DNA of 45,048 bases from a virus, in the IMG/VR virus record IMGVR_UViG_3300049478_000011, positions 1-45,048 of that record; one strand, given 5' to 3'. Made by a program: the position numbers and the translations under genes. The notes under the pieces were generated by a model that saw nothing but the letters and a program-made list of their open reading frames with translations, made no database searches and had not been told where the DNA came from. Below are positions 4,763 to 24,579 of the stretch, piece after piece (within the stretch, counting starts at the first letter, position 1; each line of letters starts with the position of its first letter).

Positions 4763-6169
4763 CTAAGTGTTCATAACCGTTTTTTCTTTGATCCAGGCGG
4801 TCACGGCAGGTGCTATGTCCTGCCAGTCCGTCAGGTCAGTGATATCGTAAGTCGTGATGATATTGCCGGCGGTCTTTTTGGCCGTCAGCTTTTCGGCGAG
4901 ATAGACGGATTCGGTTTGCGTCTTCAGGATCTTCTTAATCCACGAATAGACCTCGGCCAGAAAACAGTCCTCGGAAACGGCAAATCCTAGACCGTGTTGA
5001 TAGAATTCCTGGAGTCCGATTTCCTCGGTAACAAATTTATAGATTTTCTTGAAGAAGGACTCCTGGAGATATGCTTCTTCGGAGACCGACTTTAGTTTTA
5101 CCTTGAGCGTCTGATAGGACTCGGCCAGGAATATGTCTTCCTTTTTTGGGATGCTGATTTTCTTGCCCGGCGTTCCCTCACTTGTCCCGATACTTTCAAC
5201 GACCGTCTTGTATTTCTTGATTGTGATGTCAAGCGAGATATCGTCCCAGGACCCACGGCTCTGATAATAGTCGTAGGAATACCACTGGACATCGAGTTCG
5301 CAGTTTCCGAACCAGGCTTCACTCGGGTAGTAGGTCACATCACCGTCCCAACCGGACTTAACCCACGCCTCGAGCGTCAGAGTGTAGGTTCCGGCACTGC
5401 TCATATAGCTTTTGATGTCCAGGTTGTTCAGGATCGTGGCCCAATTTCCGTCGGAGAGATAACCGTCATAAAGAGTCCAACTGCCCCCGTAGGCCTTGGA
5501 AAGTGTCACTTTGAAGCGGGCATAACCTTGGTACGGACAATAAAGGTTCACCGACCCTTTTGCATCCAACGTCAAGGTTGCCGTGTGCGGTGTTCCATAA
5601 ACTTCGATGGTCTTTTCTATCCAGGCATATTTCTCTATTTGGGAATCGCCGTAGCTCTGAATGTAGCAGTTCGGATCATCCAGGGTAAATCCGCCGTTCG
5701 ACCAAGATCCGTAGGGATTTTCGATCTTGTCCTGTTCGTTCGTTCTTTCACAGGCAGACCTTACCTCCGTTTCAAGCCGGAGTTTATAGTTCCCCGCTTG
5801 GCTGAAATGCGCGAGAACGTCGTACTGGTCGAGGATATTCCCCCACCCGGTTTCGCCAGTTTTCGTCTCATTGGCAAGTTCCACCCAAGAGGTGTCCGGC
5901 TTCTGGAGTAAGACCTTACTTTTGACGACACCGTTGACATAGTTCTTGGCTACCGATTCGTATTTCCGCCAGGCCGTGACCTTCGCGGCAATCACGGTAT
6001 CGACGACATTTATCTCCTGCCAAATTGTGAAAGTTTTATAGTCGGTACTTCCAGCCGGCGAATCGCCGTAAATATTGTCCCCGTCCGCGGTAAACGGATA
6101 GTTTATCGGTCCATTCTCCCAATACTGGGTATAGAGGGAGAAATTGGGATTTAGGAGCTTATTGGGCAT
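4763..6169 (-). CDS. Tail-associated protein with beta-sandwich domains and E-x-x-L-x-E repeats
   Basis: This 468-residue protein has two related beta-rich modules in its first 320 residues (for example WVELANETKTGETGWGNILD... and WTLYDGYLSDGNWATILNNLD...), resembling jelly-roll carbohydrate-binding folds. The C-terminal part, about 320-440, carries five spaced repeats of about 18-21 residues with an acidic-x-x-hydrophobic-L-x-E core (EDIFLAES, EEAYLQES, EEIGLQEF, EDCFLAEV, ESVYLAEK). The gene overlaps its upstream neighbour by 11 bases. I infer a virion surface or tail protein. Confidence 0.6.
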   Translation of the reverse strand: MPNKLLNPNFSLYTQYWENGPINYPFTADGDNIYGDSPAGSTDYKTFTIWQEINVVDTVIAAKVTAWRKYESVAKNYVNGVVKSKVLLQKPDTSWVELANETKTGETGWGNILDQYDVLAHFSQAGNYKLRLETEVRSACERTNEQDKIENPYGSWSNGGFTLDDPNCYIQSYGDSQIEKYAWIEKTIEVYGTPHTATLTLDAKGSVNLYCPYQGYARFKVTLSKAYGGSWTLYDGYLSDGNWATILNNLDIKSYMSSAGTYTLTLEAWVKSGWDGDVTYYPSEAWFGNCELDVQWYSYDYYQSRGSWDDISLDITIKKYKTVVESIGTSEGTPGKKISIPKKEDIFLAESYQTLKVKLKSVSEEAYLQESFFKKIYKFVTEEIGLQEFYQHGLGFAVSEDCFLAEVYSWIKKILKTQTESVYLAEKLTAKKTAGNIITTYDITDLTDWQDIAPAVTAWIKEKTVMNT

Positions 6170-9936: not shown

Positions 9937-10401
9937 TTATTCGGTCTTTTCCTCCACGGAAACGCCCTCTTTCTTGGCTCGGTTGGATTCCTGTAATCGG
10001 TGTCCAACCATGTGCATCTTCAAGCCCTTTCCGCCAAGGTCATTTGGGAATTCCTTGTTGCAGACCTCGCATTTGGAACCCGGCTGTTTCTGCGTTTGTT
10101 TCCCGATCTCTCCATGAAGCTGATCCGTGCCTACGGGACCCCGGAACACTTTCTGCGCGTCCGGATTCGGCGGTTTCGGGGTTTCCGCATTGATTTCAAA
10201 GACCTCATGCCGCTTGTAGGCCGGGGACTTGCGGAGCGCCTCGATAATATCCTGGTCCGCGGTCGTGTAATTGCCGTTGTCGAACTGGGCGATGACCGCG
10301 GGGATGATGAATGGCTGTTCCCCGTAAAATCCTTTTCGTTCGGGCTTCACCTGGATCGAGAGCCGGATGTAGGGTGAATGAAAGGTGACTGGTTCAGCCA
10401 T
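9937..10401 (-). CDS. Head-region protein with C2H2-like zinc finger
   Basis: This 154-residue protein starts at 10401 (MAEPVTFHSP) behind GGGGGA; an upstream in-frame start at 10437 would overlap the neighbouring gene. The first 70 residues are strand-rich. Near residue 120 is C-x2-C-x15-H-x3-H (CEVC...HMVGH), a likely zinc-binding finger. Zinc-finger-like tails occur on several phage head-associated proteins, but the role here is unknown. Confidence 0.65.
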   Translation of the reverse strand: MAEPVTFHSPYIRLSIQVKPERKGFYGEQPFIIPAVIAQFDNGNYTTADQDIIEALRKSPAYKRHEVFEINAETPKPPNPDAQKVFRGPVGTDQLHGEIGKQTQKQPGSKCEVCNKEFPNDLGGKGLKMHMVGHRLQESNRAKKEGVSVEEKTE

Positions 10402-14044: not shown

Positions 14045-14089
14045 ATGTCAATCTTTTTTCTTGACAATTCCTCCTGCTGGCATTACCTT
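14045..14089 (+). promoter_or_regulatory. Rightward promoter of first early operon
   Basis: TTGACA (14061-14066), 17-base spacer, weak -10 TACCTT (14084-14089). An ATGTCAAT sequence just upstream (14045-14052) forms an inverted repeat with the -35. The same ATGTCAAT also stands upstream of the Cro promoter. GGAGG and the ATG at 14110 follow. Confidence 0.5.
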
Positions 14090-14109
14090 TTTAGTGGAGG
14101 TAAAAACAA

Positions 14110-14355
14110 ATGAAAGATAAAAAGAGTAAAGGCCAGATCGTGAGCTTTATGGGTATCCGGCCAGTACCAGGCTCCTATTGGACAACTAACCGACATGATT
14201 GCCTCGGACGCGCTCAGGTCGAGATTATGATTAACTCCGACGGCACGTTTGAAACTTTATGCCCCACTTGCATGGGCCATCCGACAGTATTTTTTGAGTG
14301 CGGTCAATTTTCCTTTATCGGAGAGACGGTTATATCCTCCTCTGAAGAGGTCTAA
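14110..14355 (+). CDS. Small early protein with CPTC motif
   Basis: This 81-residue protein has a strong GGAGG site before the ATG. Residues 53-58 contain CPTCMG, with further cysteines at about 30 and 64, which could hold a metal. First gene of the early operon next to the control region. Its last codons and stop lie inside copy 1 of the hairpin leader of the next gene. Family not recognised. Confidence 0.65.
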   Translation: MKDKKSKGQIVSFMGIRPVPGSYWTTNRHDCLGRAQVEIMINSDGTFETLCPTCMGHPTVFFECGQFSFIGETVISSSEEV

Positions 14356-14396
14356 AGACCGAAACGGCCTTCGGGCCGTCAGGAGGTAAAAACAAA
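14339..14396 (+). ncRNA. Multi-hairpin translational leader, copy 1
   Basis: Three hairpins in series: CCTC-TGAA-GAGG (14339-14350), GGTC-TAAA-GACC (14349-14360, competing with the first), a GAA linker, then ACGGCC-TTCG-GGCCGT (14364-14379). CAGGAGGTAAAAA and the ATG at 14396 follow. Copy 2 keeps the plan with changed but still paired stems. Confidence 0.7.
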
Positions 14397-14779
14397 TGAA
14401 AAAGCGAATTTCGACAAGGCAGGTCGGAGACGGAAAACTGCCTAACAAGTACTGGGTTTCTGTCTTTGATGATTTTCTTTACTACGACACAGAAAGCGGC
14501 TCCTGGGAATGGGATTCAGACCGGACAAGAGAGGAAGCACACGGAAAAACAATCGCTGTTTTTTGGTCTTATGCGGGAGCCAGAAACTTATTTGATTCTA
14601 TCGTGTTAGGGGAAGAACATGGCGGAATCCTAGTCCGGGGAAAAACAATCGAGGACCGATTCTCCGGCGAAGTCTGCCGGGAGGTTTTCCAAGAGGTCAA
14701 AACCTGTGAGCCGTTCTTCGAGGAGAGCTTGTCATTTACAAAAAAGAAACTCGAAGAGGCCGGCCAAAAATTTGTTTGA
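14396..14779 (+). CDS. Early protein of unknown function
   Basis: This 127-residue acidic, aromatic-rich protein (KYWVSVFDDFLYYDTESGSWEWDSDRTREEAHGK at residues 18-51) ends with a charged helix. It is preceded by AGGAGG and the hairpin leader. The small size, the acidity and the place among early genes are like those of many phage host-takeover or anti-defence proteins, but no family was recognised. Confidence 0.65.
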   Translation: MKKRISTRQVGDGKLPNKYWVSVFDDFLYYDTESGSWEWDSDRTREEAHGKTIAVFWSYAGARNLFDSIVLGEEHGGILVRGKTIEDRFSGEVCREVFQEVKTCEPFFEESLSFTKKKLEEAGQKFV

Positions 14780-14787
14780 TTTTTCCC

Positions 14788-14841
14788 CCTCTGAAGAGTC
14801 AGGCATGACGAAACGCCCGCGAGGGCGTCAGGAGGTAAAAA
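14788..14841 (+). ncRNA. Multi-hairpin translational leader, copy 2
   Basis: The same plan as copy 1: CTC-TGAA-GAG (14789-14798), GTCA-GGCA-TGAC (14798-14809, sharing one base with the first), a GAA linker, ACGCCC-GCGA-GGGCGT (14813-14828), then CAGGAGGTAAAAATG. Stem bases differ from copy 1 but remain complementary. Confidence 0.7.
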
Positions 14842-15014
14842 TGGAAGAAATAACGGTCAAGTGGTTTTTAGGGATGGACGGTCCTCAGAATTATGAGGGC
14901 CATTTTTCCAGTCTGAGGGCTGCGGCAATACGGGCTCAAGAGGGCCGGAGATATGGCTACTACGTGACGGTCAAGATCGAGTCCGGGCCGGTTGTCTATC
15001 AGATTTGGGGCTGA
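14841..15014 (+). CDS. Small early protein (57 residues)
   Basis: It begins MEEITVKWFLGMDG and ends VYQIWG. The start at 14841 is set by AGGAGG at the end of hairpin leader copy 2. A beta-alpha-beta-like pattern (ITVKWFLG, SLRAAAIRAQEG, YYVTVKIESG) is visible. Function unknown. Confidence 0.6.
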   Translation: MEEITVKWFLGMDGPQNYEGHFSSLRAAAIRAQEGRRYGYYVTVKIESGPVVYQIWG

Positions 15015-15549: not shown

Positions 15550-16578
15550 ATGATTCAGAAAGGTCAAAAGGTCCACTGTATTCTTTACGGTGGAAAGGAT
15601 GGGATTATCTTTGAGATCCACGGGGAACAACACCCGGAGACAATCAAGACACTGGGCGGCGGGTGCATGGTGATGGGCGGGTCCGCGTCCTTCGATATCG
15701 TCTTCGAGGACCATATCAGCCGCGGGGTCCCGGAGTCGATCGTCCATGGCGTACAGTGGCGCATTTATGACGAGATCGCCACGGAGGACGAGATCAAGGC
15801 CGCTCTCGAGGCGGCAGGGAAGGCCACGGCTGACCGGGGGGCAGCAGCCAAGGCCCAGGCCGAAGCCAAACAAAAAGAGATTGAAGAACTGCCCGGCCGG
15901 TTTCCCTATCTCATCCCTAAGTCAAAAGCAGGCGGCCTGTCTGATGCCGCACTGGGCGCCAAGAACATGAAGGCCGAACTGAGCAAGGCGTTTCCAGGCG
16001 TCAAGTTTTCTACTCGCTCCGAATACTACAGCGGCGGAAATGCCATTCGCGTTTCATGGACCGACGGACCGACAGAGGAAGAGGTCAAGACGATTTCCGA
16101 CAAATACCAGGAGTGCAGCTTTGACGGGATGACCGATTCGACCATTTACCTTGACACGGCCTGGCCGGAGGCGTTCGGAGGTGCGAATTATGTCACTGAA
16201 TCCAGGCACGAAAGCCCCGAACTGATCCGGCGGGCAGCTGCACAGGATTGGAGTGTCGGCGTTGAGGTCACGGAAAAAGGGGAGATCATCGGCTTGACCC
16301 AAGCTCAGAAAATGGACGTTTACCGCACGGCCCGGAAAATGAGCGCTATACCCGAGATCAAGGCGAACCCCGGGAACGGAAACGGCCATGGCCCAGTAAG
16401 CGAGAAGACCGTCCGCGAGAACAAAGAAAAGAACGGCGTCGAGATCCTCTTCCCGGCTAAACCGGCAGCCGAGGTCCTCGACAAGCTGAAGGCGAACGGC
16501 TGGCGCTGGAGCCGGTTCGCGGGGTTGTGGTACAACCGAAACACCCCGGAGAATCTCGAATTCGCCAAGGGATTGTAA
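15550..16578 (+). CDS. LPD29-domain protein (polyvalent-protein-associated domain)
   Basis: This 342-residue protein has GGAGG before its ATG. Residues about 135-205 (AKNMKAELSKAFPGVKFSTRSEYYSGGNAIRVSWTDGP..., then CSFDGMTDS) match large-polyvalent-protein-associated domain 29, which occurs in phage and plasmid proteins of unclear function. The last 50 residues (GVEILFPAKPAAEVLDKLKANGWRWSRFAGLWY) are a tail found on many proteins of this kind. A helical Ala/Glu linker lies before the domain. This is the last gene before the 16585 terminator. Confidence 0.75.
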   Translation: MIQKGQKVHCILYGGKDGIIFEIHGEQHPETIKTLGGGCMVMGGSASFDIVFEDHISRGVPESIVHGVQWRIYDEIATEDEIKAALEAAGKATADRGAAAKAQAEAKQKEIEELPGRFPYLIPKSKAGGLSDAALGAKNMKAELSKAFPGVKFSTRSEYYSGGNAIRVSWTDGPTEEEVKTISDKYQECSFDGMTDSTIYLDTAWPEAFGGANYVTESRHESPELIRRAAAQDWSVGVEVTEKGEIIGLTQAQKMDVYRTARKMSAIPEIKANPGNGNGHGPVSEKTVRENKEKNGVEILFPAKPAAEVLDKLKANGWRWSRFAGLWYNRNTPENLEFAKGL

Positions 16579-17524: not shown

Positions 17525-18601
17525 TTAAGACGTGCGGCTTACTGGAATCAGAGGCCGGAGCGTTTGATCTAATTTTTCAACAGTCTGCCTCTGTTCGGCA
17601 AGGGCGGGGTGAGTATATTTCAGCGTTGTCTTGAGGTCTGCATGGCCCAGGACCGCCTTGGCCGTGGCAAGGCCGGAGGAGGCCGAGACGATCGTTGAGA
17701 CCGTATGCCGGAGCTGGTGGAAGTGGAAGTCCTCGACCCGGGAGAACTTTCTTATCTCTCGGACTGCATAGAAAATGGCGTTCGGGTTCCTCCAGGAGAC
17801 AGGGAAAACAAAGTCGGCCCGAGAGCGCTGCCGGCCGATGATGTCTAAGGCTGAACGGTTCAACGTCGTGATCCTAAACGATGGGGCAGCCCGGGCTATG
17901 GTTCGACGCCGGCTCTTTGTCTGGCTGATCGGGAAATAGATAACATCGTCCCGAATCCATGACCGCCGGAGGTTCAGGATCTCCGACAACCGGAGCCCAG
18001 TCATAAGGCCGAAAAGGATCAGGTCATAAATCACGCGCTGAATACTTGTCTTGGCCTTTGCCTGAATGTCCATGGCCGCGGTAAGGACCGCCGTGATCTC
18101 CTCATTAGAGAGAGCCCGCCGGCTGGGGTCCTCAACGAAAGGATGATAGGATCTAGCCGGATTGTCCGTGATGTAGCCGTCCTCGAGGGCCTGGTTGAAG
18201 AGATGCCGAAGGAGCTCGAAGTACCTATTGACGGTCGAGGGTTTAAGACCCCAGGAGAAAAGCGCCTTTTCAAGTTTCTCGATCTGTCCGCGCCCGATCT
18301 CATGGAGGCTACCGTCTCCCCAAATCTTGATTATCTTCTCAAGGCGCTGGCGTTCCCGGTCCCAGGATTTTTTATTATGATTGCGTTCAAGGTATCGGTG
18401 GCAGTATTCGACAAGGCCGATTTGCTTTTGAGAGATAGGGGGAAGATTGAAATGACGGGCCAGGATTTCTTCTTCGACCTGCTTTGCCCGGCCGGAAAGA
18501 AATGCCTCCTGGCCGCGGCGCAGCCGAAGGGCCTTGTAATAAACCCGGCCCTCGATCATCTTCTTGAAATAGTAGCGGTTACGAACGATATAGACGGTCA
18601 T
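17525..18601 (-). CDS. int: Tyrosine-recombinase integrase
   Basis: This 358-residue protein has an N-terminal arm-binding region, a SAM-like core-binding domain (about 60-160) and a catalytic domain. The catalytic residues are visible: Arg204 in TGLRLSE, Lys229 in QTKS, His295 and Arg298 in HQLRHT, His320 in LGHADL, and Tyr329 in KYTHP. The ATG at 18601 is chosen over a TTG at 18664; it leaves a 23-base overlap with the repressor gene, so both are probably on one leftward message. attP lies directly downstream. Confidence 0.92.
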   Translation of the reverse strand: MTVYIVRNRYYFKKMIEGRVYYKALRLRRGQEAFLSGRAKQVEEEILARHFNLPPISQKQIGLVEYCHRYLERNHNKKSWDRERQRLEKIIKIWGDGSLHEIGRGQIEKLEKALFSWGLKPSTVNRYFELLRHLFNQALEDGYITDNPARSYHPFVEDPSRRALSNEEITAVLTAAMDIQAKAKTSIQRVIYDLILFGLMTGLRLSEILNLRRSWIRDDVIYFPISQTKSRRRTIARAAPSFRITTLNRSALDIIGRQRSRADFVFPVSWRNPNAIFYAVREIRKFSRVEDFHFHQLRHTVSTIVSASSGLATAKAVLGHADLKTTLKYTHPALAEQRQTVEKLDQTLRPLIPVSRTS

Positions 18602-18893
18602 AAAGACGATGACCCAAGAATTCTCTAGCGTTTTCGTTTTTGAATTTTTCTGGCTCTTTCTCAATGGCTTGGACTATTAGAAAATAAGCCTCCGGGATTC
18701 CGAGGCCCGCCGCTAATCGCTCTCTCATTCTCTGCCTGGGATTAGTATGGTCATTTCTAAGTTTGCTTATATATGGCGGAGTAAGTCCGGTTTTTCGCGC
18801 AAGGGTCGTTAGGCTCTCGCCCTGGGCCTCCATTAGCTTTATAAGGGCGATCCCAAAATAACTTCCACTCGGATTAGATTTGCCCTTAGGCAT
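18579..18893 (-). CDS. CI-like repressor, HTH XRE type
   Basis: This 104-residue protein has a helix-turn-helix of the XRE/Cro-CI kind (ESLTTLARKTGLTPPYISKLRNDHTNPRQRMRERLAAGLGIPEAYF, residues about 27-72). There is no S24 peptidase domain, so it should not be cleaved by a RecA-type SOS route; another inactivation path is likely. AAAGGAGG lies 5 bases before the ATG. Its promoter contains the perfect operator at 18929-18947. Confidence 0.85.
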   Translation of the reverse strand: MPKGKSNPSGSYFGIALIKLMEAQGESLTTLARKTGLTPPYISKLRNDHTNPRQRMRERLAAGLGIPEAYFLIVQAIEKEPEKFKNENAREFLGHRLYDRLYRS

Positions 18894-23038: not shown

Positions 23039-23770
23039 ATGCCAAGAGGAAGGATACTTTTGAGGGCCGTATCTGACAGTCACAAACTTTCCCTATTGAA
23101 GACGGATACCGCCAGGCTTCTCTATTCTTGGCTGATCCCGCACGTCGATTACAACGGGAATTTTTCCGGCGATGCCGAATTCGTTAGGAATCAGGTATTT
23201 AAGCGGCTTAGAAAAACGGAGAAAGAGGTCGAGGATTGTTTGGCTGATCTGGAAGACAAGGGACTCATTCTTCGATATGAGGCGAACGGCGACAAGTTCC
23301 TTCATGTAGTATTGTTTGTAGAGAAGCAGCCGCACCTAAATCCGGACCGGGAATCTGAAGCAACAATCCCTTTGCCGCCCGGGAATAAGCGGCCTAAGAA
23401 AACGGCAAAGCCGAAGTTAGAGAAGGCCGAATTTGAACCGATAGACATGGAACTTGCGGCAACCATGGTATTGGAAATAGCAAAAAATAATCCAAAATTC
23501 ATCAAGCCCGACCCGGACCGGTTAAAGAAATGGGCCAAGGATATTCGGATGATGCGAACCATAGACAACCGGGAACCTCGAGACATTCGGAAGCTGACCG
23601 AGTGGGCGCAGACCGATGATTTCTGGCGAGGAAACATTATGTCTCCAGCTAAACTCCGAGAGCACTTCGGCCAGCTTTGGACCAAGATGCACACAAAGAA
23701 GCCAGGAGAAAAGACCGCCGAAGAACTCGAAAGGGAAGATGAGGAAGCCTTGAAGGACCCGGGGAGATGA
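23039..23770 (+). CDS. Replication initiator / helicase-loader-like protein
   Basis: Residues 1-100 of this 243-residue protein form a winged-helix of the phage replisome-organiser sort (LLKTDTARLLYSWLIPHVDYNGNFSGDAEFVRNQVFKR..., GLILRYEANGDKFLHVVLFVEKQPHLNPDRES). A basic linker and a helical C-terminal domain (SPAKLREHFGQLW at the end) follow, as in DnaD/DnaT-like loaders. It lies two genes before the DnaB-like helicase. Confidence 0.7.
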   Translation: MPRGRILLRAVSDSHKLSLLKTDTARLLYSWLIPHVDYNGNFSGDAEFVRNQVFKRLRKTEKEVEDCLADLEDKGLILRYEANGDKFLHVVLFVEKQPHLNPDRESEATIPLPPGNKRPKKTAKPKLEKAEFEPIDMELAATMVLEIAKNNPKFIKPDPDRLKKWAKDIRMMRTIDNREPRDIRKLTEWAQTDDFWRGNIMSPAKLREHFGQLWTKMHTKKPGEKTAEELEREDEEALKDPGR

Positions 23771-24579
23771 AAATGATTCCGAGAGATAAACTTATAGACG
23801 GCTTAGAAGAGAATGTAATTTTAAAGGGATACCGCGGAAGTATAGCGCATGGAACTTATGAAGAAAACACTACGCACGACGACAAGGATATTATGGGAAT
23901 TTTTGTCGCGCCAGAAAATTGCATCTTTGGCATAGATAATATTGAGACCATTGACCGGGCAATTCCAGAGAAACTTTCCGAGAAGAGAACGGTTATTTGG
24001 GACATCGTTTATTATTCCATAAAAAAATTTCTCTCTTTAATTTTAAAACAAAATCCGAATGTAATAATGATGCTCTGGCTTGATGAAAAATACTATATCA
24101 AAAAAACTTTCCTTGGCAATATTCTTATAAGCCATCGCCTATCACTTTTATCTAAGCAGTGCTATCACTCATTTTCTGGCTACGCATACGGACAACTCCA
24201 CCGAATGACCCATCATCAGCCGACCGGCCAAATGGGGGCAAAAAGGAAAGAGCTCGTAGACCGATTTGGATATGATGTCAAAAATGCGGGCCATTTAATT
24301 CGTCTTTTAAAAATGGGAATCGAGGCACTAACGACCGGCGAACTCCTAGTTGAGCGGCCGGATAATAATATGCTCCTAGAAATTAAGCGCGGGGAATGGC
24401 CGCTTCAAAGAGTCCTGGATTATTCGGATTCACTTTTCAGGTTAATGGAAGAAGCCCTTGTTAAATCCCCGCTTATCAGTCGAGTTGACCACGATTTTAT
24501 AAATTGGCTTTGTATTGACATTACCAAAAGATTTTATGGGATAAACCCTAAATATACTGGAACGATGGCAATAATATGA
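23767..24579 (+). CDS. RlaP-like nucleotidyltransferase
   Basis: This 270-residue protein shows a polymerase-beta-type nucleotidyltransferase active site: GSIAHGT (residues 24-30), then eight residues on DDKDIMGIFV (Asp38, Asp39, Asp41). DIVYYSIKKFLSLILKQNPNVIMMLWL and the helical half (GAKRKELVDRFGYDVKNAGHLIRLLKMGIE) follow the RlaP family, linked elsewhere to RNA repair. It sits between loader and helicase, overlapping both by four bases, and is clearly richer in A+T than either. Start at 23767 or 23773. Substrate unknown. Confidence 0.75.
   Translation: MKMIPRDKLIDGLEENVILKGYRGSIAHGTYEENTTHDDKDIMGIFVAPENCIFGIDNIETIDRAIPEKLSEKRTVIWDIVYYSIKKFLSLILKQNPNVIMMLWLDEKYYIKKTFLGNILISHRLSLLSKQCYHSFSGYAYGQLHRMTHHQPTGQMGAKRKELVDRFGYDVKNAGHLIRLLKMGIEALTTGELLVERPDNNMLLEIKRGEWPLQRVLDYSDSLFRLMEEALVKSPLISRVDHDFINWLCIDITKRFYGINPKYTGTMAII

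Follow-up and report, generated by a model that had tools for sequence, protein, structure and literature searches.

What are two similar, multi-hairpin RNA elements doing at successive gene junctions of a phage genome? The window analysed here (45,048 bases) forms one record in a collection of viral sequences. It encodes an SU10-type capsid and portal, a terminase, an integrase, a DnaD-like helicase loader and a DnaB-like helicase, and is therefore assigned to a tailed, probably temperate phage; the integrase, of the tyrosine type (17528–18664, minus strand), suggests the temperate lifestyle. A rightward block of small genes begins at about position 14110, where it meets the leftward structural genes, and the two elements occupy the first two junctions of this block. 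The genes and the parts of the elements are arranged as follows.

14110–14355, plus strand: gene 1 (81 aa), 5' of copy 1, with no match in Pfam or PHROG.
14336–14386, plus strand: copy 1, a type I hammerhead open at stem I, recognised by our covariance model R1, by Rfam Hammerhead_HH9 and by folding in native context; full order CCUCCU-CUGAAGA-(GGUC UAAA GACC)-GAA-(ACGGCC UUCG GGCCGU)-C^AGGAGG, the caret marking the predicted cut.
14336–14341, plus strand: 5' strand of stem I of copy 1, CCUCCU, an anti-Shine-Dalgarno sequence that pairs with 14381–14386.
14342–14348, plus strand: core of copy 1, CUGAAGA (C3 to A9), which fits the consensus CUGANGA (PMC3088659).
14349–14360, plus strand: stem-loop II of copy 1, GGUC-UAAA-GACC.
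14361–14380, plus strand: GAA, stem III (ACGGCC-UUCG-GGCCGU) and C17 of copy 1; predicted cut 14380^14381.
14381–14386, plus strand: 3' strand of stem I of copy 1, AGGAGG, the Shine-Dalgarno sequence (SD) of gene 2, whose start codon is at 14396.
14396–14779, plus strand: gene 2 (127 aa), between the two predicted cuts.
14785–14835, plus strand: copy 2, a type I hammerhead recognised by R1 and by Rfam Hammerhead_1; full order CCCCCU-CUGAAGA-(GUCA GGCA UGAC)-GAA-(ACGCCC GCGA GGGCGU)-C^AGGAGG.
14785–14790, plus strand: 5' strand of stem I of copy 2, CCCCCU, with one A·C mismatch in the native-context fold.
14791–14829, plus strand: core (CUGAAGA), stem II (GUCA-GGCA-UGAC), GAA, stem III (ACGCCC-GCGA-GGGCGU) and C17 of copy 2; predicted cut 14829^14830.
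14830–14835, plus strand: 3' strand of stem I of copy 2, AGGAGG, the SD of gene 3, whose start codon is at 14841.
14841–15014, plus strand: gene 3 (57 aa), 3' of copy 2, with no family match.

The start codons of genes 2 and 3 thus lie 15 and 11 nt past the predicted cuts of copies 1 and 2, respectively, and the UAA stop of gene 1 (14353–14355) lies inside loop II of copy 1. At copy 2, an upstream UUUUU can lengthen stem I over AAAAAU in the native-context fold, taking in the first bases of the start codon. A candidate third copy before gene 1 (14073–14105) has the CCTCC...GGAGG arms without a hammerhead core and was rejected.

Both copies satisfy every position of the hammerhead consensus core, namely C3 U4 G5 A6 N7 G8 A9, G12 A13 A14 A15, U16 and H17 (PMC3088659), with A15.1-U16.1 as the pair and C as H17. 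The core is enclosed by three helices, with stem I open, having 6, 4 and 6 bp (stems I, II and III) in copy 1, and 3+2 (one mismatch), 4 and 6 bp in copy 2; folded in native context, each copy adopts the hammerhead three-way junction as its minimum-energy structure. Rfam models recognised the copies at scores below the gathering score, which is a library threshold and no biological criterion: Hammerhead_HH9 (RF02275) matched copy 1 with 29.8 bits (E=3e-5; gathering score 52) and Hammerhead_1 (RF00163) matched copy 2 with 20.5 bits (E=0.047; gathering score 34). R1, which was built from an alignment of 24 elements, none of them from the window, found exactly two matches in it, copy 1 (E=5.7e-12) and copy 2 (E=5.6e-10), and no other match at E<=10 across its 45 kb. 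Two such sites lie far outside chance expectation; a stem-and-core descriptor gave one match in 20 shuffled windows. On sequence grounds, each copy is a complete, putatively self-cleaving type I hammerhead.

The first-pass annotation had read the letters of the stems, loops and GAA linker, and of the CAGGAGGUAAAAA that follows, correctly and in their right places, and the two copies that it proposed are real. The elements start at 14336 and 14785, not at its 14339 and 14788, since the overlooked 5' strand of stem I, which pairs with AGGAGG, sits just upstream. In the predicted folds, the TGAA-loop hairpin with which it opened each copy forms no helix; the letters concerned belong to stem I, the CUGANGA core and the start of stem II. 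A competition between two hairpins finds no support either, given that folding at minimum energy yields the hammerhead junction and that what was taken for a competitor is the catalytic core. It had also named no described family that matches, and the hammerhead ribozyme is one that does, by its exact core and by the weak matches to the two Rfam families.

Tertiary contacts differ among the elements. Five relatives whose stem II is minimal could form a pseudoknot between loop II and the flank of stem I, which is likely in L045, L046 and L048, the strongest cases; the window copies show no sign of such a base-paired pseudoknot, non-Watson-Crick contacts being invisible to the method. The cleavage rate of the window copies at physiological Mg2+ could therefore be low.

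Relatives were sampled by scanning viral contigs with patterns for a type I core with an SD in stem I, so the set over-represents SD types. The scans yielded true hammerheads in 16 contigs, which were used for the model, and two variants with hammerhead-like SD junctions (L044:714–775, minus strand; L047:5868–5927, plus strand), possible core variants in which either an extra C seems to follow the CUGACGA core or the first stem II pair is weakened. Some phages in the set are related to one another, as judged by genes common to L093 and L097. In the alignment of 24 elements, 96% of cells are paired, both sides change in 10 of the 15 pairs, and the covariation score is 0.567, as against 0.138 for shuffled alignments and at most 0.128 for slid structures; CUGANGA, GAA, A15.1-U16.1 and H17 are kept in these relatives and in both window copies, while the stems vary. 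The earlier proposal that the RNA shape is under selection is thereby borne out, and the model search returned dozens of further copies, the opposite of the outcome that the first pass had named as refuting it. The alignment contains no conserved aptamer-like or ligand-binding domain beyond the hammerhead core, the loops of stems II and III being short and variable.

The exact-sequence pattern of the two copies had no match in the viral contigs, a set that may omit the closest relatives of the window phage. A looser pattern ending TCAGGAGG hit 31 contigs without a convincing hammerhead, and the pattern CTCCTN...NAGGAG hit 35, nearly all by chance in coding sequence, and served as a negative control. 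Against isolated phages, neither the region nor single elements gave a meaningful BLASTN match; one isolated phage, HMO-2011, has a short coding match with L099 and no R1 match. Gene 2 has relatives in a handful of viral contigs and in a single contig of a Patescibacteria metagenome-assembled genome, and tblastn found none among isolated phages; a set of 287 Patescibacteria genomes gave no R1 match at E<=1e-3.

We regard it as very probable that both copies are type I hammerheads that cleave themselves at junctions between genes of an early polycistronic phage mRNA, each cut freeing an SD. Partition-function calculations are consistent with such a release: in the uncut RNA, 11 of the 12 SD bases have a predicted unpaired probability of 0.01–0.22, the mismatched A of copy 2 standing at 0.70, and in the cut RNA all 12 reach 0.77–1.0 (for copy 1, 0.02–0.15 uncleaved and 0.90–1.0 cleaved). 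The two copies flank gene 2 on the coding strand, which fits the known clusters of two or more hammerheads around single genes. The early RNA would cut itself soon after transcription, 3' of C17 (14380 and 14829). At its new 3' end, the upstream mRNA would carry a 2',3'-cyclic phosphate and be shielded by the hairpin of stem III. The downstream mRNA would begin 5'-OH-AGGAGG with its SD free, while uncut RNA would hold the SD paired. Gene 2 would thus be released as a monocistronic mRNA (about 449 nt) that has a stability and a start site of its own. Since the ORF of gene 1 crosses stem I and the core of copy 1 and ends in loop II, a ribosome terminating there would unfold the ribozyme and expose the SD, and could in this way couple or gate translation and cleavage.

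The same arrangement of stop codon, hammerhead, SD and AUG recurs in at least 16 other uncultivated phage contigs, with up to 14 hammerheads per genome; R1 matches in whole records numbered 14 in G013, six in G015, four each in G014 and G018, and three each in G010 and G016. Its geometry was counted over 48 elements, the window included, using ORFs of at least 40 aa. The stop of an upstream ORF falls within −10 to +25 nt of the element start in 44 of the 48 (14.5% in random same-strand placements), an ATG follows 9–17 nt past the cut in 33 (7.5%), and both occur together in 30 (1.2%). The commonest junction reads UAA-CUCC(C/A)-CUGAUGA...-^(G/U)GGAG-N5-9-AUG. Among 19 elements that were not picked by pattern, an SD-like 4-mer stands right after the cut in 12 and a start codon 8–18 nt downstream in 10; the 12 such hammerheads of G013 include eight with both the 4-mer and an ATG 9–14 nt downstream. 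The six hammerheads of G015 have their start codons 34–41 nt downstream and a stem I that mostly lacks an SD, so SD release is not universal, and on present sequences the SD in stem I is best described as a common feature.

The densest case lies in G013 (L098, G013:18500–30500), where about 14 type I hammerheads and at least one type II hammerhead occupy nearly every gene junction over some 9 kb; the proteins encoded downstream of them are mostly without a known family. None of the hammerheads of L098–L103 attains its Rfam gathering cut-off, and standard pipelines would therefore miss this phage subclass.

Ribozymes of other kinds stand at comparable places. Directly 3' of a gene 2 homologue, at the junction that copy 2 occupies in the window, contig L004 carries a type II hammerhead (5358–5420, plus strand) that is circularly permuted relative to copy 2, with stems of 6, 3 and 11 bp and a sub-threshold Rfam Hammerhead_II score of 17.4 bits; two other relatives of gene 2 (L003, L037) have no hammerhead at the junction. 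Type II elements are also present in G013 and G005, and a gene junction of G015, the phage with six hammerheads, holds a pistol ribozyme (RF02679, 58 bits; L103:12858–12919, minus strand). The annotated hammerhead of HF2 (10292–10359) fills the gap between a stop at 10290 and a helicase start at 10371, and the isolated Pseudomonas phage PaP3 has a type I hammerhead (L114:44034–44112, minus strand), unannotated in its record, flush behind the stop of orf67. This variety of ribozyme permutations and classes suggests that cutting at the junctions is itself the selected property.

The elements might be real ribozymes whose only use is to segment the mRNA and set its stability, giving the segments separate half-lives, a hairpin at the 3' end and a 5'-OH end that resists 5'-end-dependent decay, with the SD in stem I reflecting a compact junction and not control. 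The hammerheads of G015, which lie behind stops at a distance from the next start and mostly lack an SD in stem I, fit such a use, as does the pistol ribozyme at a junction of the same phage. Catalysis, however, does not require an SD-like stem I, yet most copies have one, and two thirds of the G013 hammerheads that were not picked by pattern keep both the SD-like 4-mer and the closely spaced ATG; we consider segmentation as the sole function possible but doubtful. Less likely again is a regulated switch, in which a ligand, a phage protein or the position of a ribosome would govern the ribozyme, in the manner of glmS or through competing hairpins. The upstream stop codon, which lies inside loop II of copy 1 and abuts stem I in most relatives, speaks for it, since terminating ribosomes could gate folding; the lack of a conserved aptamer-like domain, the short and variable loops of stems II and III, and the hammerhead being already the minimum-energy fold all speak against it. 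The first-pass idea of a translational switch responding to a phage or host factor accordingly divides: the bearing on translation stands, the SD lying inside the element, and the sensing of a factor finds no evidence.

Two further explanations dispense with cleavage. The elements could be non-catalytic structures that sequester the SD for translational coupling, their resemblance to hammerheads being inherited or coincidental; stem I by itself can mask the SD in the predicted fold, and hammerhead cleavage is a prediction. Masking an SD needs no such core, however, and no core position is lost in either copy or in any of the 24 relatives, which makes this account highly improbable. That the stem III hairpin acts at the gene ends as an intrinsic terminator or attenuator we hold to be next to impossible: the hairpins are GC-rich, of 6 bp, with UUCG and GCGA loops, but no T-run follows them, and a terminator scan was negative at both copies.

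Two other genes of the window may be noted here. One, at 15550–16575 (plus strand), encodes a protein in which two large polyvalent protein-associated domains, LPD30 and LPD29, are found. The other (23767–24576, plus strand), adjoining the DnaB-like helicase, encodes an RNA-repair nucleotidyltransferase of the RlaP family (PF10127); it was not found in 19 further phage records that carry ribozymes, which leaves a tie to the ribozymes unsupported. The idea that the mRNAs are circularised was dropped, RtcB ligase being absent from the window and from the same number of other phage records.

With the type I hammerhead families (RF00163; RF02275, HH9) the window copies share the core nucleotides, the three helices, A15.1-U16.1, C as H17 and the open stem I; they differ in their sub-gathering scores, in a stem I made of SD and anti-SD, and in showing no clear tertiary contact. 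Prophage hammerhead clusters flanking single genes or short blocks were described by Perreault et al. in 2011, together with the cutting of polycistronic RNAs in vitro and a suggested role in mRNA processing, and 14 of 18 consensus hammerheads tested there cleaved in vitro; Shine-Dalgarno sequences, ribosomes and translation are not mentioned in the main text of that paper (PMC3088659). The window resembles these clusters in that several hammerheads flank genes of a phage operon, the geometry of stop, stem I, SD and AUG being the added feature. HHphage of the haloviruses HF1 and HF2 and the PaP3 hammerhead likewise stand directly behind a stop codon, but that of HF2 is annotated as type II and, in PaP3, the next annotated start lies about 58 nt beyond the element. 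The HDV-like theta ribozymes of gut phages are also self-cleaving and proposed to act in phage RNA processing, but they belong to another class and are tied to tRNAs instead of mRNA junctions (PMC10879173). A 2017 review treated the function of prokaryotic hammerheads as an open question and noted their links to phages (PMC6155905).

Closest in design are hammerhead and twister switches engineered in bacteria to mask an SD (PMC5052635; PMC12192606). There too a helix joins SD and anti-SD and cleavage frees the SD, as is predicted for the window copies, but the engineered switches are man-made and aptamer-controlled (PMC5052635), whereas the window elements are natural, lack an aptamer and stand at gene junctions. 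No description of natural, repeated hammerhead junctions with an SD in stem I was found in the open-licence literature, most subscription papers lying outside this scope. The ribozyme class and the kind of location are already known; what seems to be new is the recurrent and functionally suggestive SD-in-stem-I architecture.

A wider scheme, to which we give an even chance, is that type I hammerheads with an SD in stem I, along with type II hammerheads and pistol ribozymes, stand at successive junctions (up to about 14 in 9 kb) as a widespread natural device that would turn a long transcript into single-gene mRNAs, the cut switching translation on and itself being open to gating by the ribosome that terminates upstream. 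In most copies the stop codon abuts stem I, the SD lies inside it and the AUG follows 9–17 nt past the cut, an arrangement that suggests translation licensed by cleavage together with segmentation of the mRNA. Routine Rfam annotation misses this subclass of junction hammerheads, whose SD in stem I would parallel, in nature, a switch design reached independently in synthetic biology.
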